Shown here: positions 22,868 through 62,790 of the stretch, one piece after another
How the letters are laid out: each line of letters opens with the position of its first letter
How positions within the stretch are numbered: the first letter of the stretch is position 1
Assembly (NCBI GenBank): GCA_934502625.1
Contig: CAKSUQ010000006.1
Location: forward strand, 36,355-100,354
Source: an uncultured Gemmiger sp.
Lineage (GTDB): Bacteria > Bacillota > Clostridia > Oscillospirales > Ruminococcaceae
Direction: 5' to 3'
Length of the DNA: 64,000 nucleotides
Notes under the pieces: generated by a model
What the model was told of the DNA's origin: nothing
The model's input: the letters and a program-made list of their open reading frames with translations, nothing else
The model's database searches: none
Program-made: the position numbers and the translations under genes

Positions 22868-22968
22868 AGTCGGAGTGACGGGATTTTCCCGCGGGCTGGC
22901 AAACTGTCCGCAGGACAGTTTACCCCGGCGCTGCGGCGCCGTCGCCCTGTTCAAACCCTCGTCACTCT
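22868..22968 (-). other. Stem-loop derived from the tRNA-Pro 3' end
   Basis: CGGAGTGACGGGATTT at 22871 repeats the 3' end of the adjacent tRNA-Pro (23013 onward). It pairs with CCCTCGTCACTC at 22956-22967 to form a long stem that encloses a second hairpin, AAACTGTCC/GGACAGTTT. The unit is followed by its own terminator, so it looks like a duplicated and remodelled tRNA tail. Confidence 0.55.
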
Positions 22969-22974
22969 AACGAC

Positions 22975-23008
22975 AAAAAAGACCCTCAGCCTAAGCTGAA
23001 GGTCTTTT
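22975..23008 (-). terminator. Terminator of the tRNA-Gln/tRNA-Pro transcript
   Basis: Minus strand AAAAAGACCTTCAGC, loop, GCTGAGGGTCTTTTTT immediately after the tRNA-Pro CCA. Confidence 0.85.
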
Positions 23009-23084
23009 TGGTCGGAGTGACGGGATTTGAACCCACGGCCTCTTGGTCCCGAACCAAGCGCGCTACCAACTGCGCTACACCCCG
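23009..23084 (-). tRNA. tRNA-Pro (anticodon CGG)
   Basis: Cloverleaf with acceptor CGGGGTG/CACTCCG, anticodon stem CTTGG/CCAAG and loop TTCGGGA (anticodon CGG), T loop TTCAAAT, discriminator A and encoded CCA. The T stem uses two G-U pairs. Confidence 0.95.
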
Positions 23085-23087
23085 TAA

Positions 23088-23118
23088 AGAAAAACCGCAG
23101 CAGCTGGGCTGCTGCGGT
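23088..23118 (-). terminator. Hairpin between tRNA-Gln and tRNA-Pro
   Basis: Minus strand ACCGCAGCAGC, CCA loop, GCTGCTGCGGT followed by TTTTTC. Could partly terminate or serve as a processing stem. Confidence 0.6.
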
Positions 23119-23119
23119 G

Positions 23120-23193
23120 TGGTTGGGGATGAGAGGATCGAACTCCCACGGGCGGAGTCAGAGTCCGCTGCACTACCATTATGCGAATCCCCA
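23120..23193 (-). tRNA. tRNA-Gln (anticodon CTG)
   Basis: Acceptor TGGGGAT/ATCCCCA, anticodon stem GCGGA/TCCGC with loop CTCTGAC (anticodon CTG), T loop TTCGATC, discriminator A and encoded CCA. Confidence 0.95.
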
Positions 23194-23234
23194 TCGGGTA
23201 TCTCGTATCGGGCATCTGCCCTCAACGCTCATAT

Positions 23235-23263
23235 ATTATAGCGTGCCCGGTGGGATTTGTCAA
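23235..23263 (-). promoter_or_regulatory. Consensus promoter of the tRNA-Gln/tRNA-Pro pair
   Basis: Minus strand TTGACA (23258-23263), 17-base spacer, TATAAT (23235-23240). Confidence 0.9.
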
Positions 23264-23316
23264 CGCCTTTTTTGAAAAAAGTTCAACTTTTTTCACGTTC
23301 GGCAAAAATGCACGGT

Positions 23317-23793
23317 TCAGCGCTCTGTGATCTGCTTGCCGGTCATCTGTTCCGGTGTCAAGGCAAGGCAAAGCACCCGCTCCTTGGCCGATGCGATCTC
23401 TCCCTCAATATACGCCGCGTCGTCGGTGAACTTCTCGGCCAGACGGCGGCAGACGGTCAGCGTCGCCGCCGCGTCCGTCACCGGCGCGATGCGGCCAAAC
23501 ACGATCACACTGCGGAAGTGCAGCGGCCACTCCCCTTCCACGCGCCAGCCCTCGTCGTGCACGCAGAAGGACGCCTTGTCGCACGCCTTGATGGCGTCCA
23601 CCTTGTGCCCCTCCCGCGCACCGTGGAAGTACAGCTTCCCGTCGGCCTCGTTGTACCAGAAGTCGATCGGCACACCGTAGGGGTATCCGTCCTCCCCCAG
23701 CAACGACAGCACCCCGCGCGGCTGGCTTTTTAAAAGCTCGACACATTCTTCCTTCGTAAGCTCCTGCTTGAAGCGGCGCATTTTTCTGAACAT
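23317..23793 (-). CDS. Pyridoxamine 5'-phosphate oxidase-like flavoprotein (Nim-like)
   Basis: 158 residues: MFRKMRRFKQELTKEE, then GVLSLLGEDGYPYGVPIDFWY and LYFHGAREGHKVDAIKACDKASFCV, the pattern of the 5-nitroimidazole-reductase-like (NimA) branch of the PNPOx split-barrel family. These bind FMN or F420-like cofactors; resistance is not implied by the fold alone. Single gene with no clear promoter in the AT-rich stretch upstream. Confidence 0.85.
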   Translation of the reverse strand: MFRKMRRFKQELTKEECVELLKSQPRGVLSLLGEDGYPYGVPIDFWYNEADGKLYFHGAREGHKVDAIKACDKASFCVHDEGWRVEGEWPLHFRSVIVFGRIAPVTDAAATLTVCRRLAEKFTDDAAYIEGEIASAKERVLCLALTPEQMTGKQITER

Positions 23794-23900
23794 TTTCGGT
23801 TTCCTCCCTGCTTTTTCCCTGATTGTAGCACAGAAGAGTGCGTTTGCAAAGTCCTTCCTTATATATAAACGCGGAGGAATAAGACGGCGGTTTTTTTGGC

Positions 23901-23922
23901 GAATTGTGCGCGGCGTTCCAAC
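23901..23922 (-). repeat. Outlying inverted iteron copy
   Basis: Reads GTTGGAACGCCGCGCACAATTC on the minus strand, matching the boxes at 24752 and 24932, 130 bases left of the main array and in the opposite direction. Between it and 24051 one degenerate box (TATCCGTGGGCATATTTT, about 24001) can be made out. Confidence 0.6.
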
Positions 23923-24050
23923 AGGGCGTGCGGCGGAAAATAAAAAATTTTCGTGGAAATTTTTCTTCCGCCCTTTGTATTTGCATGGCGGTCAGCCACT
24001 ATCCGTGGGCATATTTTGCGCTTTTCGCCACAATATAAAAGTTTTTGGGG

Positions 24051-24953
24051 TTGTTATCGACGGCACTTTTTTGGCGCAGCGGGTTGTTATCCACCGCACA
24101 ATTTCCGGGCAAAAGCATTGTTATCGGGGGCACATTTCCGGGGATTTTCGTTGTTATCAGCGGCACAATTTTCTACAGTATGTATTGTTATCGACGACAC
24201 AGTTCCCCGCAGATTTCCCAACAATTGCCCCGTCTGCGGTTGTTATCCGCCGCACATTTCCCCGCACGACGGCACCGCGCAGGCATTGTTATCCACGGCA
24301 CAATTCCCGGTTTTACAGGGATTTTTCCGCATTTTTTCAAAAGTTATCGGGTTGTTATCCGTAGCACAATTCGCGGTGGCGCTGGCTGCGCGGCCGGTGT
24401 TGTTATCATCGGCACTTTTTGCGGCATGGGTTGTTATCCGTGGCACATTTTCCATTTTGTAGATTTTTTGCAGCGCGTATTGTTATCCGCAGCACAGTTC
24501 CGAAAAAAGCCCCCTGCTGCGTTTTCCGGGGGTTGTTATCAACCGCACAATTTTTGCCGGACACGCCGCGGGTAGGGTTGTTATCCACAGCATAGTTTTG
24601 ACAGTGGGAATTTTTTCGTCCGGCGTTGTTACGCACGGCACATTTCGGAATTTCGCGCCCGGTGTTGTTATCAGCGGCACAATTCGCTGCTTTTCCGCTG
24701 GGGTTGTTATTCAGCACACAATTCCCCAAAAACTCCTATGCCGCGCAGGGTGTTGGAACGCACGGCACATTTCAAAAATCCTGTTTTGTGGGTTGTTATA
24801 GGCGGCACAATTTGATTTTTCCGCAAGAATCCTGCCGCAGAATTTTTGCGGAAAAAATATTTTTTTGCGTTGTTACACCCCCCACATGGTTATTTCCGGC
24901 ACAGCTTTGTGGTTATTCCCGGCACAATCGGGTTGGAACGCACGGCACATTTC
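24051..24953 (+). repeat. Iteron array, about 22 direct copies
   Basis: Box consensus TTGTTATCCRCGGCACAATT. Starts at 24051, 24084, 24118, 24151, 24185, 24240, 24286, 24352, 24400, 24431, 24480, 24533, 24578, 24626, 24665, 24704, 24752, 24793, 24870, 24888, 24910 and 24932. All point the same way. The first five are 33-34 bases apart and the last three 22 apart, so they recur close to whole helical turns; the middle ones are 31-77 apart with unrelated filler. The core TTATCCACR resembles a DnaA box and is a perfect TTATCCACA at 24581. No gene is credible in 23794-25140. Confidence 0.9.
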
Positions 24954-24954
24954 T

Positions 24955-25030
24955 ATTGTAATATTCGACATAGCTATACATATTTTCTAAATATATATAA
25001 ATATCTTATAAAAATCTCAAAAAGAAAAAA
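24955..25030. other. AT-rich stretch, candidate duplex-unwinding element
   Basis: Between the last iteron and the rep promoter lies the most AT-rich run of the neighbourhood (ATACATATTTTCTAAATATA and following to TCTCAAAAAGAAAAAA). The order iterons, AT-rich tract, rep gene is that of iteron-controlled theta origins. Confidence 0.6.
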
Positions 25031-25053
25031 CGCGGATTCCGGGCGAAGAAAAC

Positions 25054-25074
25054 GAAATGTGTCGAGCGTTACAA
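25054..25074 (-). promoter_or_regulatory. Inverted iteron abutting the rep promoter
   Basis: GAAATGTGTCGAGCGTTACAA is the inverse of the box variant TTGTTACGCACGGCACATTTC (24626). It ends 3 bases before the -35 TTGACA, a position suited to autorepression by the initiator. Confidence 0.65.
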
Positions 25075-25077
25075 TAA

Positions 25078-25106
25078 TTGACACTTGCAACACAATCTGC
25101 TATTAT
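25078..25106 (+). promoter_or_regulatory. Promoter of the rep gene
   Basis: TTGACA (25078-25083), 17-base spacer, TATTAT (25101-25106); GATGAGG ribosome site at 25127-25132. Confidence 0.85.
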
Positions 25107-25140
25107 ACGCTTATCGTGTTGTAAAGATGAGGTTTTGCAT

Positions 25141-27084
25141 ATGGCAACCAGAGACGCATTCCGGGAAGAAGCAGCCCAAACGGGAAATGTGCACCGGATA
25201 ACAACCCAGCCCAACGCCAAAAAATCCGCACAGCCCGCAAAGGTGCAGGCCGAAGCCCCGGTCGCAACCTTCAGCGAGCGCGGCAATCAGAATATCGTCC
25301 GCAAGTCCAACGACCTGATCCAGAACGCTATGTACAGCCTCTCGCTGAGCCAGCAGAAGCTGATGCTGCACATCTTCTCGATGATCAAGCCGTCGGACAC
25401 CGAACTGCCCCGCTACGAGATGTCGATCTACGAGTTCCTCAAGCTCTGCGGGGTCGACCCACACAACGGCTCGATGTACAAGCAGGTCAAGAAAAATATC
25501 GAGGACATTGCCAACGCCAAGGTGCAGTGGATCCGTCTGGCCGGTACCCAGAAGATCACGATGTTCCGCTGGCTGTCCAGCGCGACCATCGACGAGGGCA
25601 CCGGCAAGATCGTACTGACGCTGGATCAATCGCTGAAACCCCACCTGATCCAGTTAAAAGAGTTCTACACGACGATGAACATTACCTATACTTTGCCCAT
25701 GAAGAGCCAGTATAGTCTAAAAATTTACGAGCTGTGCAAGAGCTACCAGAATCTATACCTGACAAAGAAGGAAAAAGGCGAGCCGCTGGTCTGGAGCATC
25801 GAGACGCTGAAAAAGCAGGTGGACTGCAACGCCGCGAACTGGGCACACGTGCGCCGCACCGTACTGGACAAGGCGAAGAGCGAGATCAACGGCCACACCG
25901 ACATCTATTTCGACTACGAAGTCTACGAAAAAGATCGTCAGCGCGTCATTGCCATCGCTGTCACCATCGAGCCGGTGGACAAGCAGGTTGCCGACGACAA
26001 GCTCAACGAGATCACAAAATCCATGTCGCACAAGGTGCGCAGCAAGAAAAATAAGCTCACACTGGCCGAGACAGGCACGATCGACGACGACCCGAACGTC
26101 CTGACGCTGGAGTATGTCTCGGTGCCCGAAACGACGATCCCCTACTCCTACGGCGCGACGCCGGAGCTGCTGCGGCAGGAGTTGGAGGTCAAGGCAGAGC
26201 TGGACAAGCTCGTCAAGACACTGACCGCCGACGAGATGGAGGCCGTGCAGACGATGATCGGCGCGATGGTGAAGATGGCCGGCACCGCGCGCGGCAATGA
26301 CAAGATGATTGACGGCGGCAACGCGGCCTTCTTCCAGACGATGAACAACGTCATCGACAACTGCGGCGGCCTGCGCCGCTGGTTCGAGGGCGTGGCGTCC
26401 CGCTATGCCGCGCGGGTCATCCCGACGGCGCGCACCAAGAGTGCCCCCCTGCCCTACCTGTCCCGTGCGATTCTGGATGATCTGGAAAATTACCGTATCT
26501 ACGTTGTAAGCGGCGCGCCGGAGGAGCTGGTGGAGCAGGCACCCGCCAAGCCCGACCTGCTGGAAACCGAATTTGTCGAGACCGACGCCGAGCCGCTGAA
26601 CCAGTTGGAGCCCGCCGATGCGGCCACGAAGAAGCAGGTCACGGCGGCGCTGCTGCGTTACATCGACCGGGACGCCCTCTCGGCACGGCTGACGACCGGC
26701 CAGATGGAGGCCTTCGACGACATTCTGCAGATGACGGCCTATTTCTGCCGCCGCAACGTCAAAGGCAAGGACGACGGCATGATGGAGGGCAAGGCCAACA
26801 TGCAGTTCCTCAACCCGCTGAACAAGGTCATTGCCCGCTACGACGGCCTGACGCTGTTGTTTGAGGCGATGGCCGTGATGATGGACTACGACACCTACTG
26901 GAAGGACTTGATGAAGAACCCCAAGATCAAGAACCCGAAGCTGGTCTTCCAGTCCGAGGTCGAGAAGGCGCTGCTGATGCCGTCGGCGATCATTGGCGAG
27001 TACGCCGCCCGCAAGGCGCAGAACGAGGGCGACCGCCAGCCGAAAAAGGAGTACAACTGGACGAAGGCTTTCGACGAGGAGTAA
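25141..27084 (+). CDS. Rep_3/RepB-family replication initiator
   Basis: 647 residues from the ATG at 25141, the one spaced 8 bases from GAGG. After a ~50-residue flexible N-terminus comes a Rep_3 (initiator RepB/RepE type) region, about residues 52-290: IVRKSNDLIQNAMYSLSLSQQKL, YEFLKLCGV, then the second winged-helix half SQYSLKIYELCKSYQ. These proteins bind iterons to start theta replication and repress their own promoter. The remaining half is unusual: two copies of a ~75-residue module (about 360-430 and 515-590) sharing the pattern FxxxxNxVI...GLxxxFExxA. An inverted iteron lies inside its first codons (25184-25205). Confidence 0.88.
   Translation: MATRDAFREEAAQTGNVHRITTQPNAKKSAQPAKVQAEAPVATFSERGNQNIVRKSNDLIQNAMYSLSLSQQKLMLHIFSMIKPSDTELPRYEMSIYEFLKLCGVDPHNGSMYKQVKKNIEDIANAKVQWIRLAGTQKITMFRWLSSATIDEGTGKIVLTLDQSLKPHLIQLKEFYTTMNITYTLPMKSQYSLKIYELCKSYQNLYLTKKEKGEPLVWSIETLKKQVDCNAANWAHVRRTVLDKAKSEINGHTDIYFDYEVYEKDRQRVIAIAVTIEPVDKQVADDKLNEITKSMSHKVRSKKNKLTLAETGTIDDDPNVLTLEYVSVPETTIPYSYGATPELLRQELEVKAELDKLVKTLTADEMEAVQTMIGAMVKMAGTARGNDKMIDGGNAAFFQTMNNVIDNCGGLRRWFEGVASRYAARVIPTARTKSAPLPYLSRAILDDLENYRIYVVSGAPEELVEQAPAKPDLLETEFVETDAEPLNQLEPADAATKKQVTAALLRYIDRDALSARLTTGQMEAFDDILQMTAYFCRRNVKGKDDGMMEGKANMQFLNPLNKVIARYDGLTLLFEAMAVMMDYDTYWKDLMKNPKIKNPKLVFQSEVEKALLMPSAIIGEYAARKAQNEGDRQPKKEYNWTKAFDEE
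25184..25205 (-). repeat. Iteron copy inside the rep coding sequence
   Basis: GAAATGTGCACCGGATAACAAC, inverse of the array box, within codons 15-22 of rep. Confidence 0.7.
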
Positions 27085-27096
27085 TGTCCCACCCCC

Positions 27097-27120
27097 GAAA
27101 ATTATGCCGTGAATAACAAC
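27097..27120 (-). repeat. Inverted iteron downstream of rep
   Basis: Minus strand reads GTTGTTATTCACGGCATAATTTTC, 12 bases after the rep stop codon, so the whole gene is bracketed by boxes. Confidence 0.7.
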
Positions 27121-27121
27121 T

Positions 27122-27151
27122 CGCCCCCGCCGGAAAATTCCGGCGGGGGCG
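27122..27151. terminator. GC palindrome between rep and the CobW gene
   Basis: Perfect 12-base arms CGCCCCCGCCGG/CCGGCGGGGGCG with loop AAAATT; no T tract, but placed between convergent genes. Confidence 0.6.
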
Positions 27152-27165
27152 GTGCTGTACGGGGG

Positions 27166-28098
27166 TTACCCCTGTATCACTTTTTCAATGGCGTCCTTTT
27201 GCAGTCCCTCGCCAATGACGATCAGGACTTCCTGCCCGTTGGGGATGGGCCGGACTGTCATTGTGTCGCGGGCGGCGTTCAGCTCGACCCAGCCGCCGCC
27301 GTCGGGCACAAACCCCTTAATGCGCAGGATGTGCCCGTACTGTGCGCTGTGTAAAAGCGTCTGCGCGGCGGTTTTCAGCTGGTCGACGCTGCGCCCGGCT
27401 TCGAGGAAATACAACGAAGTGAAGGCCTCGTGCTCGTTGAAATGCAGCTTGACGTAGCTCGTCTGCCGCCAGCCGCAGCCGTCGATGCGGGCAAAGTCGG
27501 TGTCCGTCAAGGCCGCCCAGTCCTTGCACAGCACGTCCGCGCCAAAGCGGCGGTCGCAATGGCAGTACGCTAACGCGCGGTTCAAATGGTCGATCACGGC
27601 GGCGCACTCCCCTGCCCCGGCCTGCTGGACGCGGCTCATGACGACCAGCCCGGCGCTGGCGGCCTCCGACGCCAGCAGGTAGTCTGCCTGCAGCGAGAGC
27701 TCGTCCTCCAGCTTCGTGTCGACGATGGCGACGACGTTGCCCAAGGTGTACCAGCGGTCAAGCGGCTCGTCCCGCAGGATGTCGTAGAACTCGTCCACGT
27801 CGAAGATGCCGCTGGGTTCGATAACGACCCGGTCGAAGCCGCGCATCGCCATCGAGATCAGCTTGGTGCGCATCCGGCGCTGGTGGGTGTCACAGTCGCA
27901 GCCGCCGCTGATCGTTTCCAGATCGCAGTGCGCGCCGATCAAGTCCTGCAGCAGCATCGCGTCGACGTTCACCGCGCCGAAGTCGTTTTCCAAAATGCAG
28001 ACGTTATGCCCCTGCCGCACCAGATATTCCACATATCGGCGCAGAAAAGTTGTCTTGCCGGAGCCGAGGAAGCCCGTGATGAGATCGACCTGCACCAT
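27166..28098 (-). CDS. CobW/HypB/UreG-type GTPase
   Basis: 310 residues from the ATG at 28096-28098, two bases after the upstream gene's stop. P-loop ITGFLGSGKTTFL, then ILENDFGAVNVDAMLL and EPSGIFD typical of COG0523 metallochaperone-like GTPases. The family metal-binding CxCC site is here SGGCDCD, one cysteine short. C-terminal CobW domain: TSYVKLHFNEHEAF and HILRIKGFV. Likely a metal-insertion or zinc-homeostasis factor; client unknown. Confidence 0.85.
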   Translation of the reverse strand: MVQVDLITGFLGSGKTTFLRRYVEYLVRQGHNVCILENDFGAVNVDAMLLQDLIGAHCDLETISGGCDCDTHQRRMRTKLISMAMRGFDRVVIEPSGIFDVDEFYDILRDEPLDRWYTLGNVVAIVDTKLEDELSLQADYLLASEAASAGLVVMSRVQQAGAGECAAVIDHLNRALAYCHCDRRFGADVLCKDWAALTDTDFARIDGCGWRQTSYVKLHFNEHEAFTSLYFLEAGRSVDQLKTAAQTLLHSAQYGHILRIKGFVPDGGGWVELNAARDTMTVRPIPNGQEVLIVIGEGLQKDAIEKVIQG

Positions 28099-28100
28099 CG

Positions 28101-29072
28101 TTACTCCTCCTCCGGGTAGGTCATGCCCCACTGGCGGCGGATGTCGGTCATGATGCGCATGACGTCGCGGGTGTAGTCGAGGTGCATCGTGTTCTGCCCC
28201 TCAATGGCGCGCTCCATGTCCTCGACCTCGTAGCGCAGCGCGTCGGCGGTGCTGCCGCTGCGCAGCGTCTCCTTGCGGCCGTCCGCCGTGTAGGTGATGA
28301 CGGCCTCCTGCCCGCGGGGGTACTCGTAGATCTCGACATAGCCCTTGTCGAAGGAGACGGTGCCGCGCTTGGGCTGCTTGGCGTGCAGCGAGAGGATGAC
28401 CGAGGCCATCTCCTCCTCCTTGTTTTTCAGCAGGATGCCCGCCTGCTCGTCGACGCCGGTGGGCGCGTACTTGACCTGCGAGACGACCTGATCGGGCGCG
28501 GAGGCCATGAACCATCGCACAAAGGACAGCGCATAGATGCCAATGTCCAGCAGCGCGCCGCCGGCGAGATTGCGGTTGAAGAAGCGGTTGGACATGTCGT
28601 AGGGCTTGTAGCTGCCGAAGTTCATCTGGATCAGCCGCAGCTCGCCCAGATCACCGGCGTCGATCTTCTCCTGCAGCGTCTTGTAGATGGGCATGTGGTA
28701 GAGGGTCATCGCCTCGGCCAGCACGACGTGGTTTTCCTCGGCCAGACGGATGGCCTCCTCCAGCTCGTCGGAGTTCAGCGTGATGGACTTTTCGCACAGG
28801 ACGTGCTTACCCGCCGCCAGCGCCCGGCGCAGGTACTGCATGTGGGTGTTGTGGGGCGTCGAGATATAGATGACGTCGACGTTTTCATCGGTGAAGATGT
28901 CGTCGATGCTGTCGTAGACCTTCCCGATGCCGTACTTTTCGGCGAAGGCGACGGCCTTGGAATGGGTGCGGTTGGCGACGGCGTAGAGCGTCTGCCCGCG
29001 GGTAGCCAGCGCCTGCGCGAGTTCGTTCGCGATGACGCCGCAGCCGAGGGTAGCCCAGCGGTAGTTTTTCAT
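28101..29072 (-). CDS. Gfo/Idh/MocA family NAD(P)-dependent oxidoreductase
   Basis: 323 residues. N-terminal Rossmann fold WATLGCGVIANELAQAL, followed by the family block DVIYISTPHNTHMQYLRRALAAGKHVLCEKS with the EK motif, and the C-terminal substrate domain (GGALLDIGIYALSF). Substrate is probably a sugar or trans-dihydrodiol-like compound. Promoter at 29102-29130. Cotranscribed with the CobW gene. Confidence 0.9.
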   Translation of the reverse strand: MKNYRWATLGCGVIANELAQALATRGQTLYAVANRTHSKAVAFAEKYGIGKVYDSIDDIFTDENVDVIYISTPHNTHMQYLRRALAAGKHVLCEKSITLNSDELEEAIRLAEENHVVLAEAMTLYHMPIYKTLQEKIDAGDLGELRLIQMNFGSYKPYDMSNRFFNRNLAGGALLDIGIYALSFVRWFMASAPDQVVSQVKYAPTGVDEQAGILLKNKEEEMASVILSLHAKQPKRGTVSFDKGYVEIYEYPRGQEAVITYTADGRKETLRSGSTADALRYEVEDMERAIEGQNTMHLDYTRDVMRIMTDIRRQWGMTYPEEE

Positions 29073-30117: not shown

Positions 30118-30194
30118 TGGTGGAGGATGGGGGACTCGAACCCTCGACCTCTGCGATGTGAACGCAGCGCTCTAACCAGCTGAGCTAATCATCC
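30118..30194 (-). tRNA. tRNA-Val (anticodon CAC), with stem mismatches
   Basis: Anticodon stem CTGCG/CGCAG, loop TTCACAT, T loop TTCGAGT, encoded CCA. Acceptor GGATGAT/ATCCTCC has one T-C mismatch and the T stem GAGGG/CCCCC one A-C mismatch, unlike the other tRNAs here. Either a weak but working gene or one in decay. Confidence 0.8.
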
Positions 30195-31561: not shown

Positions 31562-31582
31562 TTGTTATTCTGGACACAGTAT
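31562..31582 (+). promoter_or_regulatory. Iteron-like box at the flavodiiron promoter
   Basis: TTGTTATTCTGGACACAGTA resembles array boxes at 24185 and 24704 and covers the -10 region. Single site, so chance similarity is possible. Confidence 0.35.
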
Positions 31583-41159: not shown

Positions 41160-42281
41160 TTATACAGGAAGACGGTTCACAGCGTCGAGCTTGACGGCAA
41201 GGGAGATGTGACCGTAGCTGTTGGCGAGGGCAAGGTTCTTGCCGTTGGAGTGACCAATAATGGAATTTATAACGACCTCGGACACGGAGGGGACAAGCTC
41301 TTGCAGACGGGTATAGCAGGTGTGGCGCTGGCAGTAGCTGCCCAAGGGGCGGATGCCTGCACGCTGGCACATAATTTTCCAGTTGGAGTAGTAGTCGTTT
41401 TCGTCGTAGGCGACAAGTCCGTACCGCGCTTTGGGCAGGACGGAACGAACGACGGGGACAATACAGTCTGCAATGGGGATTTCGCGGTTTTTGCCCGCGG
41501 CGGTCTTAATGCCGCCGACAATGACCTGCCCGGTGGGGTCCACATCGGCAGGGTTCTGGGCGAACAACTCGCCGGTGCGCATACCTGTGTATGCCATAAT
41601 AAGCGCGTAGCCGGTCATAGGGTCCTGCGTAGCGCGCCAATCTGACCAAAGGGCTTGCATTTCCTCCGGCGTGCGGGCATCCTTGGCCGTGGGCGGCTTG
41701 CTGGGCAATTCAAGACAGCGGATCATATTAGAGGATTCGTGCGGGCAGACCTTTTCCAGCACGGCGGCGTCCACAATTTTTTGCAGCAGGGTTTTTGCGT
41801 CGCGCTTGGGGTAAAACGCGCCCTCTATGCCGTCCAGAAGGTTTTGCAGCTCAAAATAACGCAGGCTGGAAACGTCGCGCTCGTAAAGGGGTTCCAGACG
41901 TTTATAGGCGGTAAGGTAGTGGCTGCGCTTGTCGGGGGAGATTTCGTTCCATTTGCTGGATTTTTGCACCTGATCGAACATCTGGGCAACGGTATAAGAC
42001 CTTGTGCCGCCGTTTTGCACCGTGCGGAGCTGGGGCAGGTAGTTGATGGCATCGGCGCGGGTGGCGAAACCGCCCTTTGTGCGCTCGGACACAATGACAC
42101 CGTGGCGCTTGACACGCACACGGCACGACCAAGTGCGGCCGCGCTTGAAAACCGTGCCGGTGCCGTTGGGGTTGCGGGGCTTTTTGACGGGGGCAGCGGA
42201 GGTGGACACCTGCTTTTTACCGCAGAACATGCAGTAGACGGAAATATCCGGGATTTCCTGTTTACATTTTATGCAGAGCAC
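41160..42281 (-). CDS. int: Tyrosine recombinase/integrase with N-terminal zinc ribbon
   Basis: 373 residues from GTG 42279-42281, placed 7 bases after AGGAGG. Starts with a zinc ribbon (CIKCKQEI...CMFCGKK), then an AP2-like arm-binding segment (GTGTVFKRGRTWSCRVRVKRHG), a core-binding domain, and the catalytic domain: arginine in TGMRTGEL, RHT in YCQRHTCYTRL, His in IIGHSN and the tyrosine in NSYGHIS. The first histidine of the usual HxxR is replaced (GSYCQR). It should carry out integration at the adjacent tRNA-Ser. Confidence 0.92.
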   Translation of the reverse strand: MLCIKCKQEIPDISVYCMFCGKKQVSTSAAPVKKPRNPNGTGTVFKRGRTWSCRVRVKRHGVIVSERTKGGFATRADAINYLPQLRTVQNGGTRSYTVAQMFDQVQKSSKWNEISPDKRSHYLTAYKRLEPLYERDVSSLRYFELQNLLDGIEGAFYPKRDAKTLLQKIVDAAVLEKVCPHESSNMIRCLELPSKPPTAKDARTPEEMQALWSDWRATQDPMTGYALIMAYTGMRTGELFAQNPADVDPTGQVIVGGIKTAAGKNREIPIADCIVPVVRSVLPKARYGLVAYDENDYYSNWKIMCQRAGIRPLGSYCQRHTCYTRLQELVPSVSEVVINSIIGHSNGKNLALANSYGHISLAVKLDAVNRLPV

Positions 42282-42311
42282 GGGGGCACCTCCTGACATG
42301 AAAAGATAGAT

Positions 42312-42395
42312 GCAAGTTATAAGCAAGTTAAAATGCGCATGGCAACGAGAAAAACGCAATTAGCTTGAAGCTAAACGCAAGTTAGACGCAAGATT
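42312..42395. promoter_or_regulatory. Candidate integrase arm-type sites
   Basis: GCAAGTTA at 42312, 42323 and 42377, with a GCAAGATT at 42388: two pairs, each spaced 11 bases. Between the pairs is the palindrome TTAGCTTGAAGCTAA. Position just upstream of int suits arm sites or an excision-factor region. Confidence 0.45.
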
Positions 42396-49748: not shown

Positions 49749-51859
49749 CACACACCCGGCGGATTCACGGGTCGTGGGGCCGGTGAAGGTGGCCGGATGT
49801 GTGGTTGCGAGATACGGCACAGGGGGGGGGCAATGCGCCGATGGTAGTGGATGTTTTGTGCAGGGCAAGCACGCAGTCAGGTGCAGAAAGCATGATGAAC
49901 ACGGCAACAACGCTGACGACAAACTATGACAGAACGATCATAGCACATGAAAATGAGTGCATCTGCCTTGCAGGGAATTTTTGCGACCGGGAGACGAACC
50001 AGAACGGAACCGGGATGCGGGAAGGAGCGAGCTTTACCTTGAACACGGTGGACAGGCACGGGGTAGCGTATACATTCGGAAAAACAGGCAGGCCACATTT
50101 TAAGGGTGATGCGCCTACATACAAACAGCTGGACACAGCCAACACCTTGAACACATTTGACAAGGGAGAATCGCGGGCGAACGAGATTGCCGTGCAGGGT
50201 GTGCCACCGCGCTACATTGTGCGCAGGCTGATGCCGGTGGAGTGCGGCAGATTGCAGGGGTTCCCGGATGGATGGGGCGAGATCGAGCAGCTGGCGGCGG
50301 ATATGCCGGAGGAAACGGCGGCGTTCTGGCGGCAGGTGTACACAACGGACTGCGCCGTTAAGGGCAAGAAGCCGCAGAAAAGCATACTGGAAAAGCCGGA
50401 GAAGCTGGCGGCGTGGCACAACGGGTTACATACCGACAGCGCCGAGTACAAGATGTGGGGCAACGGGATGGCACTGCCGAACGCGCTGTTTTTTGTGCAG
50501 CGTGCCGTGGCGCGGGTTGCCATTGACACGGGCAAGGGCGCGGCGAATGTGAAGCTGGGCAGCATGTTTGACGGGTCCGGCACGATGCCGCTGTGCGCGG
50601 CGATGTGCGGTGCGCAGCCTGTTTGGGCCAGCGAGGTGGAGCCCTACCCTATCGCCGTGACAAAGACGCATCTGCAGGGCATGAAGCATCTGGGCAGTGT
50701 TACCGACATTTGCGGCGGGAACATCGAGCCGGTGGACATCATCACCTTTGGCAGCCCGTGTCAGGATTTGAGTATTGCAGGAAAGCGCGCCGGGCTGGAC
50801 GGAAACCGCTCCGGGCTGTTCCGGGAAGCGATACGCATTATTTTGGAGATGCTGGAAGCGACGGGGTGGAAATACCCGCGGTTCGTGATCTGGGAGAATG
50901 TGCCGGGGGCTTTATCATCGAACGGAGGGAAAGATTTTGAAACCGTACTCAACGAATTGCTGCGACTTACCGGGACAGACCAGTTTATTCGACAGTTTGG
51001 AATGTGGGGCAAATTTGGGGGCTACGGAACTGTTGCCTACCGACTTGTCAATGCGCAATACTGGGGAGTGCCCCAACGCAGACGCAGAGTATACGCTTGC
51101 TGCGATACTGGCGGACGATCCGCCGACCAGATACTTTTTGAGCGTAAGGGCCATGGATGGCATTTTGAACCGTGCATCCCGGCGGGGCAAACAGTTGCCG
51201 GAATTGCTGGTGACGGCTATAAATGGCATGAAAGAATGGTGGCGGCAGAACGCACAGGGGGGCAAACCGCCTACACCATGAAAATACGATCGGGATGCGA
51301 GGGCGGCGGAAAAGGACCGCTGGTGCAGAATGATTTATCCGCCACGCTGGCAACACATCAGAATCAGACAGTGTTTGCACCGAGGGCGTTTAGCTTTGAC
51401 AGTTTGGCGAGCAACAGTATGAAAAGCGCGAACCCGCACAGCGGATGCAGAGAGGTAGACACGGCGAAAACGCTGGATTGCGGAGCGCCGGACCCGAATA
51501 GGAATCAGGGCGGGATTGCGATTATACAGAAAGGGACGAGCATGAAAAAAGTAATTGCGATTGATTTTGATGGGACGCTGTTTGAGAACAAGTGGCCGGA
51601 GATCGGGATGCCGATTGCGCCGAATATCAACCGCGCGAAGAATGAGAAGGCAAACGGCGCGGTGCTGATCCTGTGGACCTGCCGAGAGGGCGAGAAGCTG
51701 GCCGAGGCGCTGGCCGCCTGCAAGGCCGTGGGTCTGGAATTTGACTATGTGAACGAGAACGCGGACGAGCTGAAAGCGGCGTTTGGCACGGACCCGCGCA
51801 AGATCGCGGCAACGGAATACTGGGATGATAAAAATGTGTGCATGGGGCGCTGTTTATGA
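49732..51859 (+). CDS. Permuted cytosine-5 DNA methyltransferase fused to a HAD domain, frame broken at a G9 tract
   Basis: Starts at ATG 49732 (TRD-like THPADSRV...RYGTGGG), goes out of frame at nine G's (49822-49830); with eight G's it would continue as GGGNAPMVV in the frame open from 49799 to 51859. Numbering from 49799: motif IX RRLMPVECGRLQGF about 140, motif X MWGNGMALPN about 218, then motif I GSMFDGSGT about 253, the PCQ catalytic motif about 319, ENVPG about 364, QYWGVPQRRRR about 419, a second target-recognition segment, and from 581 (ATG 51542) a HAD-like hydrolase IDFDGTLFENKWPEIG. The order IX-X-I-VIII is a circular permutation. Translation from 49799 alone would omit only the first ~30 residues. 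Confidence 0.8.
50898..51281 (+). CDS. Overlapping reading frame with phage-family C-terminal domain
   Basis: In a different frame inside the methyltransferase, 127 codons are open and the last ~90 encode NTGECPNADAEYTLAAIL, PPTRYFLSVRAMDGILNRASRRGKQLPELL. This resembles a recurrent small phage protein of Firmicutes with the pattern STGE...LSxIL...KYYLSxxAxxGILxRAxxRGKxLP (recalled, not searched). The DNA for NTGECPN is the same that encodes QYWGVPQ of methyltransferase motif VIII. No good ribosome site was found, so expression is uncertain. Confidence 0.4.
   Translation: MCRGLYHRTEGKILKPYSTNCCDLPGQTSLFDSLECGANLGATELLPTDLSMRNTGECPNADAEYTLAAILADDPPTRYFLSVRAMDGILNRASRRGKQLPELLVTAINGMKEWWRQNAQGGKPPTP
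51542..51859 (+). other. HAD-like hydrolase domain, possible independent start
   Basis: 105 residues MKKVIAIDFDGTLFENKWPEIG... ILWTCREGEKL...YWDDKNVCMG. Stand-alone phage homologues of this size are common (BT0820-like). GAAAGGGACG sits before ATG 51542, so it could be made both as a fusion tail and alone. No stop separates it from the methyltransferase. Confidence 0.6.
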
Positions 51860-59194: not shown

Positions 59195-59254
59195 ATTATA
59201 ACACGCAAGAGTGCGGCGGGCAAGAGAAAATGTGCGGAATATAACAACCGTTGT
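59195..59254 (-). promoter_or_regulatory. Promoter and operator of RHH paralogue 1
   Basis: Minus strand TTGCCC (59218-59223), 17-base spacer, TATAAT (59195-59200). Upstream, AACAACCGTTGTT (59242-59254) is a near-perfect palindrome holding the CAACCGT core found at 63433-63523. Confidence 0.65.
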
Positions 59255-59322: not shown

Positions 59323-60966
59323 TCAGGCGGGGTTGTGGGCGGCAAGCTGCATAAGTGCTGCGGTGGTGGGGATCAGGTGGCGGGCCATCGTGTCGTTGTA
59401 GGAAGTTTCTCCCTCGAAGCTGTCCACGACGGCGCGGTCTGCCGTGCTCATGTCGTGGTAGGTCTTTTTGCCGTAGGTAGGCGGGAGCCAGCCCTTTTTC
59501 TGGCTTGCGAAGATGTTGAAGGATTTGAGCACGTCCGCGTTGGTGAACTCGATGTGGCAGGTGCCCTTCTTGTAGAACGTGGCGTTGAAGTAGTGCAGCT
59601 TGATCTTTGCGGTCTGGCCGCTGTCCTCGGCGGCTTTGAGAGCGGCGCGGAGGTCGTCGCCGTTGTAGGCGGTGCCGTTGGTGTCGAGGAAGTGAAGCGT
59701 TTTCTCGATGTTGGCGAGATCGTCTGCTGCGCAGGTGGGGCGGAGTTTGTCGGACCAGTACGACCAGACGTTGCAGCGGAAAATGACGCGCTTATCGACC
59801 TTGTAGGCGGAGTTTGTGCACCACCCGTTGTAGTAGTGGACATTTTTGCTGTACTCGCTGTTGTAGTGGAGGTTGGTCCAGTCGTCGAACAGCTTGATAA
59901 TCTCGGATTCGATGTTTGCAACGATGTTGCGGGAGACTTCCTCGCGGATCGTGAGGATGTTGTAGGGGGTGAAATCGTAGTGGCGAAGGTCGTTCAGGCG
60001 CTTGTGGTAGTCGTTCTGCATCGTCTGCGTCATGGCGTCGCGGATTTGGGGCAGGTCGAAAAGCTGCTCCCAGTAGAGGGCGCGGAGGTCGCACAGCGCG
60101 TCGTTGTAGCCTTTGCTGAGGGAGACACAGGGCGCGGGGGTGCTGCTGCCTTGCTTTTTCGGCAGGGTGAACAGCGAGGAAATACCGTCGTATTCTTCAT
60201 ACAGGCGGGCGAGACCGTCGGCGGCGGCGTTGTAGCGCTCGACTGCTGCCGTGATGGGGTCGGAGCTGACGAGGGCGGCCAGATCGGGCGCGGCCTTGTA
60301 GCGCTGTGTCGTCTCGGCGTTGAGGTCAAGCCGGATGCGGGAGACCGGCGGCGCGGGCGGGATCGTGACGGCGACAAGCGCGACCTCGACCGACGTTTTG
60401 CGGGCGGCGTGGGTGAAAGCGCCCTGCTTGTAGGTGATCCGGGCGCTGTACTTGGAAAGCAGGGCGGCAAGCTCCTTGCGCTCGTTGGTGCAGGGGTTGC
60501 GGATCGTCTCGGCGTTGAGGATGCAGCGGACTTCCCCGCCCCGCTGCATGATGTGCAGGGCGTGCAGCAGGTGCCGCGCCCCCTCGGAGAATGGCGGGTT
60601 CATGATGATTGCCCGATAGTGGGCGCGGGGCGTGAAGGTGAGGAAGTCGTCGTGGATGACGCGGAAACCGCCTTGTTTGAGGGTGGCGCGGAGGGCGGCG
60701 GACTGCTCGATGCAATCCAGCTGCAGGCGCGTGAGGGTGTCGTTGTTGGTGTTGGCGTGGTAGTCGCTGGCGCGTTTATTGCCGACGTACCAGCACCCGG
60801 CGGCTTTTTCGATGGCGCGGGCGAGATCGCCGGAACCGGCGGACGGCTCCAAGATGGGGCCGGCGGCGTGGGCGAGGTCGAAACCGCCGATTTTGAGATT
60901 GGCGAGAAGTTCGGCGGCCAGCGCGGGCGGCGTTGGGTAGTAGTCTTTGCTGTCGTTGGGGATCAT
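59323..60966 (-). CDS. N6-adenine methyltransferase-like protein with DUF4942 domain
   Basis: 547 residues from ATG 60964-60966, with AGGAGGT upstream. N-terminal class I methyltransferase: motif I ILEPSAGSGDLARAI (about residue 40) and the NPPF motif in IIMNPPFSEGARH. The C-terminal ~250 residues (CDLRALYWEQLFDL...FRCNVWSYWSDKL...GTCHIEFTN) look like DUF4942, a domain often attached to such methylases on plasmids and integrative elements, probably for protection from restriction. Confidence 0.8.
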   Translation of the reverse strand: MIPNDSKDYYPTPPALAAELLANLKIGGFDLAHAAGPILEPSAGSGDLARAIEKAAGCWYVGNKRASDYHANTNNDTLTRLQLDCIEQSAALRATLKQGGFRVIHDDFLTFTPRAHYRAIIMNPPFSEGARHLLHALHIMQRGGEVRCILNAETIRNPCTNERKELAALLSKYSARITYKQGAFTHAARKTSVEVALVAVTIPPAPPVSRIRLDLNAETTQRYKAAPDLAALVSSDPITAAVERYNAAADGLARLYEEYDGISSLFTLPKKQGSSTPAPCVSLSKGYNDALCDLRALYWEQLFDLPQIRDAMTQTMQNDYHKRLNDLRHYDFTPYNILTIREEVSRNIVANIESEIIKLFDDWTNLHYNSEYSKNVHYYNGWCTNSAYKVDKRVIFRCNVWSYWSDKLRPTCAADDLANIEKTLHFLDTNGTAYNGDDLRAALKAAEDSGQTAKIKLHYFNATFYKKGTCHIEFTNADVLKSFNIFASQKKGWLPPTYGKKTYHDMSTADRAVVDSFEGETSYNDTMARHLIPTTAALMQLAAHNPA

Positions 60967-61291
60967 GGTGTTAATACCTCCTGTTTTTTGGGGTGATGGC
61001 GGCGGGCCGTTGTGCAGCTGGCCCGCTGGGCGCTGCTGCCGTTGTGGGCTGCCGTGTGGTCTTATGCCCGGCGGCGGGTGGTGCCGTTCACGCACGGCGG
61101 GCGGGGCGCTGTTGTTGTGGAGGGGTCCGGCCCCCATTGCCGGAGACGACCGGCGGCGGGTGCAATCTGTTTTGTGGGGAGGTGCACCGGCTCCCGTTGG
61201 GCTTATGCCGCTCCCCCGGCGGGACGGCTGCCATTGTTGGCGATGGGTGCGCGTTGTCTGGATCGTTGCCGGGGCTCGTGTTGTGTTGTTA
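60967..61291. other. GC-rich gap, no gene seen
   Basis: About 325 bases between the DUF4942 gene start and the first post-stop repeat. Several short inverted repeats (GGTCCGGCCCCC...GCCGGAGACGACCGGC, GCCGCTCCCCCGGCGGGACGGC) but no frame with a ribosome site on either strand. Confidence 0.45.
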
Positions 61292-61366
61292 CCCATGAGC
61301 GCCCGCCGCTGTTGTGGCGGCGGCCGGGCTTGCACCAGCGGCGGCGGATGCCGTCGGCCTTGCGGG
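61292..61366 (-). repeat. Post-stop repeat, copy 1
   Basis: Minus strand begins at the stop codon of the 65-aa gene: ACCCGCAAGGCCGACGGCAT, CCGCCGCCGCTGGTGCAAGC, then GGCGGGCGCTCATGGGT. Near-identical copies at 61608 and 62406. Confidence 0.85.
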
Positions 61367-61564
61367 TCATTCAGAGATACAGAGCAGGTAGCCGCGCTTG
61401 GCGCAGATGATCGCAAGGCGGTTGAACTCCATGTAGCGGCGCAGGGTGTCGGGGCTGCGGGTGTCGGCAAGTTCTGCCCGGTGGCGCTGCATGTAGCGGC
61501 GCTGTTGGGCAAGTTCTTTTTGCGCTTGGATGGCAGAAAGGCGGAAAAGCGTGTAAGTGGTCAT
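61367..61564 (-). CDS. Hypothetical protein (65 aa)
   Basis: AGGAGG before ATG 61562-61564. Basic helical peptide MTTYTLFRLSAIQAQKELAQQRRYMQRHRAE... Not recognised. Confidence 0.6.
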   Translation of the reverse strand: MTTYTLFRLSAIQAQKELAQQRRYMQRHRAELADTRSPDTLRRYMEFNRLAIICAKRGYLLCISE

Positions 61565-61690: not shown

Positions 61691-62353
61691 TCATGCGAGG
61701 ACCTGCGCGGCGAGGGTGGCGAAATCGAGCTGCACCGGCTCCATCGTGGGGGCGTCGTCGTGCAGGGTGTGATGTTCGACGACTGCGACGGCGGCGGGCT
61801 TGCTGGGGGTCGTTGTGGGGGCGGTGGCTGGGATCGTGGGCGCTGCCGTTGTGGCGGCCTGCTGGGCGGCGCGGCGTGCCTTGCGGGCGGCCATGAGCGC
61901 GGCGTTCTGGGCGGCGATCTCCTCCGGCGTTTTGACGTGGACGGGGGTCGGGCGCTCGACCTGTGCGGCGCTGAACAGGTAGCAACGCTTCATGTAGTAG
62001 TGGGGGTCGGGGTTGTCGTTGTTGCTGTCGGCGTTCTCTGCCCGGCGGGCCTTGCTGGGCTTGTCCGTCCAGCGCCAGAGCATGACGGAAAGAAGCGCTT
62101 TTTCGCCGCCCTTGACTTGCAAGCCCTGCGCCTTCCAAGTGTTGTAAGTGTGCAGGTTGTCGGCGAGGATCAGACGCTCGGCGGTGGGCGTGGGGTCGGC
62201 GGTGGTGCCGTCGGCGTTGTGGACGGTGAGCAGCGCCGCGCGGGCGGCGATCTGCTCCGGCGTGGAGACGGTGACGGCGAGCGCGTGGATTTCGTCGGGG
62301 GTGAGGTTGTGGGCGATGGCGTCGAAAATGAGGGTGTTGTTGTCGCGGGTCAT
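61691..62353 (-). CDS. ArdC N-terminal-like protein
   Basis: 220 residues from ATG 62351-62353, AGGAGGT upstream. Central LHTYNTWKAQGLQVKGGEKALLSVMLWRW and YYMKRCYLFSAAQVE follow the pattern of the ArdC N-terminal single-strand DNA-binding domain (antirestriction). The C-terminal metalloprotease domain of full ArdC is absent; instead there is an Ala/Thr/Pro-rich tail. Confidence 0.7.
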   Translation of the reverse strand: MTRDNNTLIFDAIAHNLTPDEIHALAVTVSTPEQIAARAALLTVHNADGTTADPTPTAERLILADNLHTYNTWKAQGLQVKGGEKALLSVMLWRWTDKPSKARRAENADSNNDNPDPHYYMKRCYLFSAAQVERPTPVHVKTPEEIAAQNAALMAARKARRAAQQAATTAAPTIPATAPTTTPSKPAAVAVVEHHTLHDDAPTMEPVQLDFATLAAQVLA

Positions 62354-62405
62354 GGTGTTACCTCCTGTGGTGTTGTTGTGGGTGTTGTGGGTGGTGGATC
62401 GGGTG

Positions 62406-62484
62406 GACCCATGAGCGCCCGCCCCGATGTTGTGGGGGCGGCTGGGCTTGCACCAGCGGCGGCGGATGCCGTCGGCCTTGCGGG
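62406..62484 (-). repeat. Post-stop repeat, copy 3
   Basis: Starts at the stop codon of the 101-aa gene and runs to shortly before the ArdC-like gene. Confidence 0.85.
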
Positions 62485-62790
62485 TCATGATACATAACCG
62501 CTATAGCGGTACTGTGTTATAACGTCGTCGGTCACGTCGTCCGGCGTGCCGCTGTCGGACATCGTGCAGGCGATCACGTCGCCCGGCGTCCAGTCGTCGC
62601 AACCGGTCAGGCTGTACAGGTGGCCGCCCCCGGTGCGGAAGGTGACGAGATCGGCGGCGCGGTCGACCGTGACGACGACCCCGGCGGCCGGGTAGGTGTT
62701 GGACGGGGCCGGCGTGATGATCTGGCCGGACTTGATGCCGACGACCAGAGCGGCGGCGACGTATGCCGCGATGATGGTAGTTTTGTGCAT
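62485..62790 (-). CDS. Exported or membrane-anchored protein (101 aa)
   Basis: ATG 62788-62790, 8 bases after GAGGGGG. N-terminal helix (TTIIAAYVAAALVVGI), then a beta-rich domain (VVVTVDRAADLVTFRTGGGHLYSLTG). Not recognised. Confidence 0.65.
   Translation of the reverse strand: MHKTTIIAAYVAAALVVGIKSGQIITPAPSNTYPAAGVVVTVDRAADLVTFRTGGGHLYSLTGCDDWTPGDVIACTMSDSGTPDDVTDDVITQYRYSGYVS

Follow-up and report, generated by a model that had tools for sequence, protein, structure and literature searches.

The stretch analysed here (hereafter the window) is 64,000 nucleotides of DNA from an uncultured Gemmiger sp. (contig CAKSUQ010000006.1). It carries an iteron-type replication unit, in which an array of repeated boxes, an AT-rich tract and a promoter precede rep, the gene of a Rep_3-family initiator. 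As judged from sequence, the unit is probably an origin-competent module of plasmid type, which the Gemmiger chromosome captured and selection has kept intact. The reading as a captured and maintained origin is based on the anatomy across eight loci in two sub-lineages, the selection on Rep, the chromosomal site, the presence or absence of the unit as a whole, and its coexistence with dnaA. A domesticated plasmid origin was among the options of the initial annotation, and conservation, selection and a presence/absence site support it.

The genome collection contained six rep loci, all from Gemmiger. Clade A (window-like) comprises the window, G001 (locus L001), G002 (L002), G006 (L006) and the metagenome piece L041. 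Clade B, whose Rep is 60% identical to that of the window, comprises G003 (L003), G004 (L004), G005 (L005) and G327. The anatomy was compared over eight loci: the window, L001, L002, L041, L003, L004, L005 and G327.

Organization of the unit

The features of the unit in the window are listed below.

23902..23921, minus strand: left-edge inverted Rep box TTGGAACGCCGCGCACAATT (read from the sequence)
24051..24812, plus strand: upstream array of 18 direct boxes TTGTTAT-N6-CACA with irregular spacing of 31-66 bp (pattern search and position weight matrix, PWM)
24870..24975, plus strand: origin core of five boxes at 24870, 24887, 24910, 24933 and 24956 (spacing 17-23-23-23 bp)
24976..25030, plus strand: AT-rich tract, presumed duplex-unwinding element (sequence)
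25058..25094: palindromic operator TGTG-N10-CAATAATTG-N10-CACA, two facing boxes over the rep -35 and spacer
25078..25106, plus strand: rep promoter TTGACA-17-TATTAT, sigma-70-type (11 of 12 consensus positions)
25141..27084, plus strand: rep, Rep_3 initiator (RepE/Pi type), 647 aa (domain search)
25185..25204, minus strand: inverted Rep box within the rep start, not kept in all relatives (pattern search)
27100..27119, minus strand: inverted Rep box that follows the rep stop and precedes the hairpin (pattern search, PWM)
27122..27151: strong G+C hairpin downstream of rep, perhaps a terminator (hairpin scan)

The box TTGTTATCCNCGGCACAATT with at most three mismatches was matched 19 times in the 64 kb, always inside 24,051-27,119, and the number expected from 100 shuffles was 0.00. 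The PWM of the Rep box was made from 68 boxes out of nine sequence pieces. It scored 24 boxes at 8 or higher in 23,900-27,130, including the inverted ones at 25,055, 25,185 and 27,100. Three matches were found elsewhere in the window, at 31,562 (21.8), 37,016 (17.0) and 59,228 (28.0). The plasmid-like order of iterons, AT-rich tract, promoter and Rep_3 initiator that was first noticed in the window is confirmed by the box counts, the domains and the sequence.

The five core boxes are repeated directly at intervals of roughly two turns of the helix next to rep, as in an iteron-type origin, and the 18 upstream boxes are further direct repeats. The core spacing was 17-23-23-23 in six of the eight loci (window, L001, L002, L041, L003 and L004) and 17-24-23-23 in the other two (L005 and G327). 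This pattern is kept between the sub-lineages despite a Rep identity of only about 60%. The 17-23-23-23 spacing reached a summed score of 353 over the eight loci, whereas 400 randomly drawn patterns averaged -112 (sd 59) and scored 192 at most, in a test where the pattern had been spotted in these loci beforehand and the matrix was derived from their own boxes. The best random spacing (16,17,23,23) was itself a near-register pattern. The AT-rich tract adjoins the core in all eight loci, immediately 3′ of box 5.

The upstream array held 18 direct boxes in L002, 15 in L001, 15 in L003, 12 in L005 and 10 in G327 (score cut-off 9 for the window and L001, 11 for the others). The arrays of L004 and L041 end at contig ends and the G006 contig begins within rep, so these arrays are incomplete. 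We read the upstream array as titration or copy-control sites.

An inverted-repeat operator at the rep promoter was present in 8/8 loci, as two facing boxes 3 bp apart. The inverted box first noticed against the rep -35 is thus one arm of a two-arm palindrome. All four inverted boxes that were said to bracket the unit are present in the window. The left-edge boxes also occur in L002, L005 and G327, and the post-stop box in 5/5 clade A loci; the box at the rep start is not general. Across the whole region, four promoter-like sites were found, compared with 1.9 in shuffles, and the hairpin scan was not above shuffles (4 vs 4.9).

The Rep initiator

Rep (25,141-27,081) matched Rep3_N (1.4e-31, 110.2 bits) and then Rep3_C (4.8e-9, 36.8 bits), both above the curated cut-off, giving WH1 and WH2 in the order of a Rep_3 initiator. 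Its sequence is similar to RepE and Pi. The structure model (mean pLDDT 67.6, pTM 0.39) was matched by Foldseek to Pi with its iteron (2nra, E 4.7e-9) and RepE with its operator (2z9o, E 8.7e-8). The names read among the best 50 of 202 matches were RepE/Pi/RepA-type proteins, RctB and one WH1 entry. Rep is expected to bind iterons as a monomer and the operator as a dimer, and the sites have the right layout for this.

The WH1-WH2 part covers approximately residues 46-300. C-terminal to it are two helical repeats, spanning roughly residues 340-455 and 490-630, which are related to each other (31% identity over 68 columns, E 9e-5, blastp). By sequence, these repeats lie beyond the known Rep_3 core and form about 350 extra residues with an internal duplication.

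The dN/dS of the whole Rep was 0.105 (L001), 0.141 (L002) and 0.118 (L041), with dS of 0.65-0.92. For residues 46-300 it was 0.025, 0.048 and 0.030, respectively, and the N-terminal tail of 45 residues showed little constraint. These figures indicate that Rep is under strong purifying selection, with the strongest values in the DNA-binding domains. Among the full-length relatives, 120 listed of 1,220 span 630-769 aa, and one of them represents 3,062 member sequences. The identity of Rep between clades A and B was about 0.60 (0.49-0.53 for the partial G006 Rep), compared with 0.93-0.95 for MraZ and 0.84-0.89 for DnaA. Rep therefore diverges more between the clades than these two proteins.

Chromosomal location

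The neighbouring tRNA genes in the window are as follows.

23,009-23,193: tRNA-Pro and tRNA-Gln, left of the unit
30,118-30,194: tRNA-Val, right of the unit

Pyridoxamine-oxidase-like and cobW-like genes are further flanks, and the chromosomal surroundings first proposed are thus borne out. The same rep and array were found at the same place in related Gemmiger contigs of up to 315 kb (L001). In clade A, the unit adjoins the same cobW-like gene in 5/5 loci, and all three loci that cover the left side (window, L001 and L002) have tRNA-Pro/tRNA-Gln there.

In clade B, the left flank of G327 is common to G003 and its right flank to G004. G005 has only the rep region in common with G327, with tRNA-Asp, -Thr and -Trp upstream. 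The contig G327:C1 is a single contig of 3,244,954 bp, equal to the reported genome size, and carries dnaA (1,481,350) as well as rep (300,711). The rep locus of G327 is therefore chromosomal, and the unit is not a separate replicon (plasmid or chromid) there. We infer the same for the window from the core-gene flanks and the size of the relatives' contigs. A homoserine dehydrogenase gene lies about 43 kb from rep in G327 and 9 kb from it in the window, indicating that rep occupies broadly the same region in both clades, which are rearranged relative to each other.

The unit was described at first as having no adjacent partition, mobilisation or integrase gene. No linked partition or transfer gene was found among the three neighbours scanned with Pfam, and the unit itself showed no gene for integration, excision or transfer. 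A phage-type integrase (41,163-42,359) lies 14 kb off in an island of its own. The Rfam scan of 22,900-28,200 detected nothing besides two tRNAs.

A tRNA attachment site was considered and rejected: the last 15-30 bases of the three tRNAs have no exact second copy in the window. A free or phage form was also rejected. Seven matches were obtained in the phage collection, of which one was long, namely MT839673.1 (L041; 4,112 bp, labelled Bacteriophage sp.). It has no terminal redundancy (10-200 bases) and contains the cobW neighbour, so it is read as a Gemmiger chromosomal fragment. IMG/VR gave two pattern matches, neither of them a relative.

Coexistence with dnaA and GC skew

The gene dnaA was present in 7/7 rep genomes. 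Clusters of TTTTCCACA lie less than 5 kb from dnaA in G001 (7 boxes in 0.3 kb) and G006 (4 boxes in 0.2 kb). On present evidence, the module is therefore an addition to the DnaA system and not a replacement.

The initial annotation had likened the box core to a DnaA box. The likeness is incidental: TTATCCACA has a single copy in the window array and none in the seven other loci (8 fetched pieces), and TTTTCCACA was absent from the seven arrays counted (G327 was outside this count). A DnaA-dependent oriC at the locus was rejected on these counts, which reveal no DnaA-box cluster. DnaA boxes sit in the origins of F, P1 and R6K, and the unit lacks this feature of an iteron origin. Such boxes are not known to be universal among iteron origins, so the shortfall is not decisive.

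The cumulative GC-skew minimum of the first 42 kb of the window is at 26,151, inside rep. In G001:C43 (rep 105,065-106,924) the minimum is at 108,441; in G002:C90 it is at 69,474, which is 5 kb to the right of rep. These minima speak for firing, as does the lack of a clear skew switch at dnaA in the dnaA contigs of G001, G002 and G006. On the other side, the best skew change point of G001:C43 was at 95 kb (t 7.9), followed by 110 kb (7.6) and 105 kb (7.4). GC skew is also weak and noisy across this genus. The skew of aligned blocks is given below (G-for-C and C-for-G counts in brackets).

G001:C43 vs G327, right of rep, same orientation: +0.023, +0.004 (1011, 856)
G001:C43 vs G327, right of rep, inverted: +0.024, +0.029 (373, 375)
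G001:C43 vs G327, left, same orientation: -0.026, -0.036 (812, 761)
G001:C43 vs G327, left, inverted: -0.021, -0.047 (392, 353)
Window vs G327, right: +0.038, +0.003 (252, 196)
Window vs G327, left: -0.007, -0.034 (552, 495)

The aligned-block comparison indicates that much of the skew pattern is gene content. GC skew was rejected as proof of firing because it is weak and noisy, shows no switch in G327 and carries this gene-content effect. It is suggestive of firing in some species but not decisive.

Proposed mode of action and distribution

The anatomy most likely represents an origin-competent module held in check by extra boxes. On the pattern of RepE, Pi and P1 RepA, Rep dimers would bind the palindromic operator and repress rep. 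Rep monomers would bind the five-box core beside the AT-rich tract, melt the tract and load the host helicase. The upstream and flanking inverted boxes may titrate Rep and pair origins, which would make firing rare or conditional.

A close rep relative was found in 7/35 genus genomes. In a family sample of 297 genomes, 11 had a match; that of G001 was close and the other ten were distant. Clades A and B are recovered both in the Rep tree and in the core tree (MraZ+DnaA). The sister genome G226, a single contig of 2,991,239 bp, is collinear with G327 on both flanks of the locus.

Several observations weigh against a maintained, origin-competent unit. The core boxes match the box matrix more weakly than the upstream boxes, and the first three core boxes of G327 are poor (scores 1.5, -0.3 and -10.9). 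The skew of G327 has no switch at the rep locus. No rep match was found in 28/35 genus genomes, some of them drafts, and in G226 a segment of 225 bp, with no box scoring 12 or higher, replaces 3.9 kb of G327 (299,217-303,134). The unit is therefore not needed genus-wide. Within clade A, the core tree pairs G001 with G002 and the Rep tree pairs G001 with G006 (whose Rep is partial), so purely vertical descent is not established. No parA/parB was detected among the three neighbours scanned with Pfam, a scan that took in part of the nearby ORFs, whereas one of the further Rep_3 genes of G001 (see below) adjoins a ParA gene. As MraZ identity groups G226 with clade B (0.99), loss from G226 is the simpler reading, with separate gains as the alternative.

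Rep boxes outside the locus

The exact pattern TTGTTATN6CACANTT occurred 18 times in the whole genome of G001 (15 at the rep locus) and 19 times in that of G002 (16), and was not found in genomes G226, G157 and G280. Boxes scoring 20 or higher are rare in the background: one hit in 1.28 Mb of the G327 and G006 pieces, one in the rest of the 315-kb G001:C43, and two in the remainder of the window. The clade A genomes G001, G002 and G006 (3/3) each have a box in the interval that separates mraZ from its upstream gene. The Rep boxes that precede mraZ and the division/cell-wall operon are listed below.

L097: 10,185 and 10,438
L099: 10,095
L098: 9,779 and 10,032

The mraZ boxes are of consensus quality (scores 35.1, 34.5 and 35.4). 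Of their 20 columns, 18 are invariant, whereas in the 60 flanking columns to each side the invariant share is 25% and 45%, and the two variable columns are the degenerate iteron positions 8 and 18. A second inverted box overlies the presumed MraZ repeats in G001 (26.5) and G006 (28.6); it is weaker in G002 (16.1). No box was found upstream of mraZ in 9/9 other genomes checked, of which four have rep.

A second chromosomal replicator, also an option of the initial annotation, is conceivable; in its boldest form, with the clade A module working as a second origin of the main chromosome that is timed to division through the mraZ/dcw Rep box, it is rather unlikely. We are equally doubtful that Rep is a non-initiating, autoregulated regulator with retained sites. 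In that case the array would buffer the Rep level, and Rep would control host genes from the outlying sites, chiefly the mraZ-led cell-division operon in clade A. The conserved, consensus-quality mraZ boxes and the low box background argue for such a regulator, but the mraZ box is missing in the nine other genomes, including four with rep, and a regulator would not need a five-box geometry beside an AT-rich tract that is kept in both sub-lineages. The regulator proposed at the outset gains some support from the solo mraZ box and is perhaps a side function.

Other boxes were recorded as follows. Solo boxes lie inside ORFs at G001:C1:439,887, G002:C55:20,754 and G003:C68:2,780. TTGTTATGCTCCGCACAGTT-like sites were found at G002:C58:19,521, G006:C32, G006:C88 and G327:383,986. 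The five boxes with which G004:C52 ends are perhaps a fragment broken off its array. At L101:3,282-3,484 (G004), two opposed solo boxes stand between deformylase-like and uracil-DNA-glycosylase-like ORFs (named by eye). In the window, the box-like TTGTTATTCTGGACACAGTA (31,562-31,581, plus strand) lies in the promoter of a flavoprotein-like gene and is present in 4/4 clade A loci examined (window, G001, G002 and G006). It is ambiguous because the surrounding promoter is conserved as a whole.

The strong solo Rep box TTGTTATATTCCGCACATTT (28.0; 59,228-59,247, minus strand) is possibly upstream of a short gene. It lies inside an island (41,163-62,488) that resembles an integrated element, with lower G+C over much of its length and strong GC skew. 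Ten ORFs of the island were scanned and four were matched.

41,163-42,359, minus strand: phage-type integrase
49,799-51,856, plus strand: C-5 DNA methylase
59,326-61,512, minus strand: DUF4942 protein
61,694-62,488, minus strand: ArdC match slightly below the cut-off

Further Rep_3 genes and the remaining alternatives

More Rep_3 genes (505-531 aa) were found in G001 and G006, namely L211 (G001:C39:15,001-35,000) and L013-L016. Their loci bear long iteron-like repeats of their own, unlike those of the window, and are probably plasmid-like replicons. In iteron systems, a large site array together with a source of Rep excludes like plasmids. The chromosomal Rep and boxes could accordingly block incoming iteron plasmids of the same group. 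The unit has both components of such a device, and the further Rep_3 genes suggest that such replicons probably circulate in the host. However, none of 72,556 plasmid records matched Rep over 80% of its length, and none had an identity of at least 60%. The repeats of the four further Rep_3 loci (about 3.5 kb each) differ from those of the unit, and no box of this type scored above 8.7 there. The incompatibility device of the initial annotation is distinctly unlikely as the main explanation, and is possible perhaps as a side function.

That the unit is a decaying leftover of an integrated plasmid, with no present function, is quite improbable. Its patchy occurrence (7/35) and its absence in G226 fit decay, but purifying selection acts over most of Rep, the operator and the core geometry are conserved, and many full-length relatives exist.

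A plasmid falsely joined to chromosomal contigs, the refuting case named in the initial annotation, is so unlikely as to be almost negligible: the locus does break assemblies (L004 starts in the array, L006 starts in rep and L003 ends just past rep), but the same neighbours recur in several separate assemblies, synteny is conserved, L001 lies on a contig of 315 kb, a 60%-identical copy stands on the single 3.24-Mb contig of G327, and the P0051 relative is on a contig listed as 1.73 Mb.

Significance and comparison with known systems

Bacterial chromosomes are generally held to carry one DnaA-driven origin. In the part of the literature that was searched, no description was found of an iteron origin that stands alone and is conserved on a main bacterial chromosome, and no paper was found for Gemmiger with 'replication initiation protein' and 'plasmid'. 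The natural two-origin exceptions encountered were replicon fusions, for example V. cholerae NSCV1, as far as the available part of PMC6284228 goes. In the fused strains NSCV1 and NSCV2 treated there, both origins are carried, and both are active or one is silenced.

With a captured plasmid-type origin in Gemmiger, a common gut bacterium, the idea that a bacterial chromosome has a second origin of plasmid style would become open to direct testing. The unit offers a natural system for asking if a second origin is something that a chromosome can use, silence or turn to another purpose in a stable way, and the single-contig pair G327 (present) and G226 (absent) eases direct comparison. If the clade A module is a working second origin, these would be natural chromosomes with two unlike origins, stable across several species. 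If Rep acts at mraZ, the initiator of a mobile element would have been wired into division control.

Salmonella genomic island 1 (SGI1) resembles the unit as a chromosomally integrated element with plasmid-like replication features (PMC7826253, available part). SGI1 is mobile and dependent on an IncC helper, whereas the Gemmiger unit showed no gene for integration, excision or transfer.

RctB/ori2 of Vibrio cholerae, with the remote crtS site, also combines a plasmid-type initiator on a chromosome with control sites outside the origin (RctB and crtS are treated in the available part of PMC11711613). RctB domains 2-3 (5ubf) gave a weak fold match to Rep (rank 48, E 2.5e-3, among the best 50 of 202). 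RctB drives a separate chromosome, whereas the Gemmiger module is on the dnaA-bearing chromosome.

In the F plasmid (RepE/oriV, mini-F), direct iteron repeats adjoin an AT-rich tract, and the rep promoter is overlapped by an inverted operator. The Gemmiger unit shares both arrangements and the WH1-WH2 initiator. It differs from F in being chromosomal with no adjacent par genes seen, in the extra C-terminal region of about 350 residues in its Rep, and in the irregular upstream array of 18 boxes.

The P1 RepA origin with incA, and F with incC, have a phased iteron core and a second set of iterons that is thought to limit initiation. The Gemmiger unit likewise has a phased core and an extra set of boxes, but its extra set is upstream of the core, larger, irregular and chromosomal.

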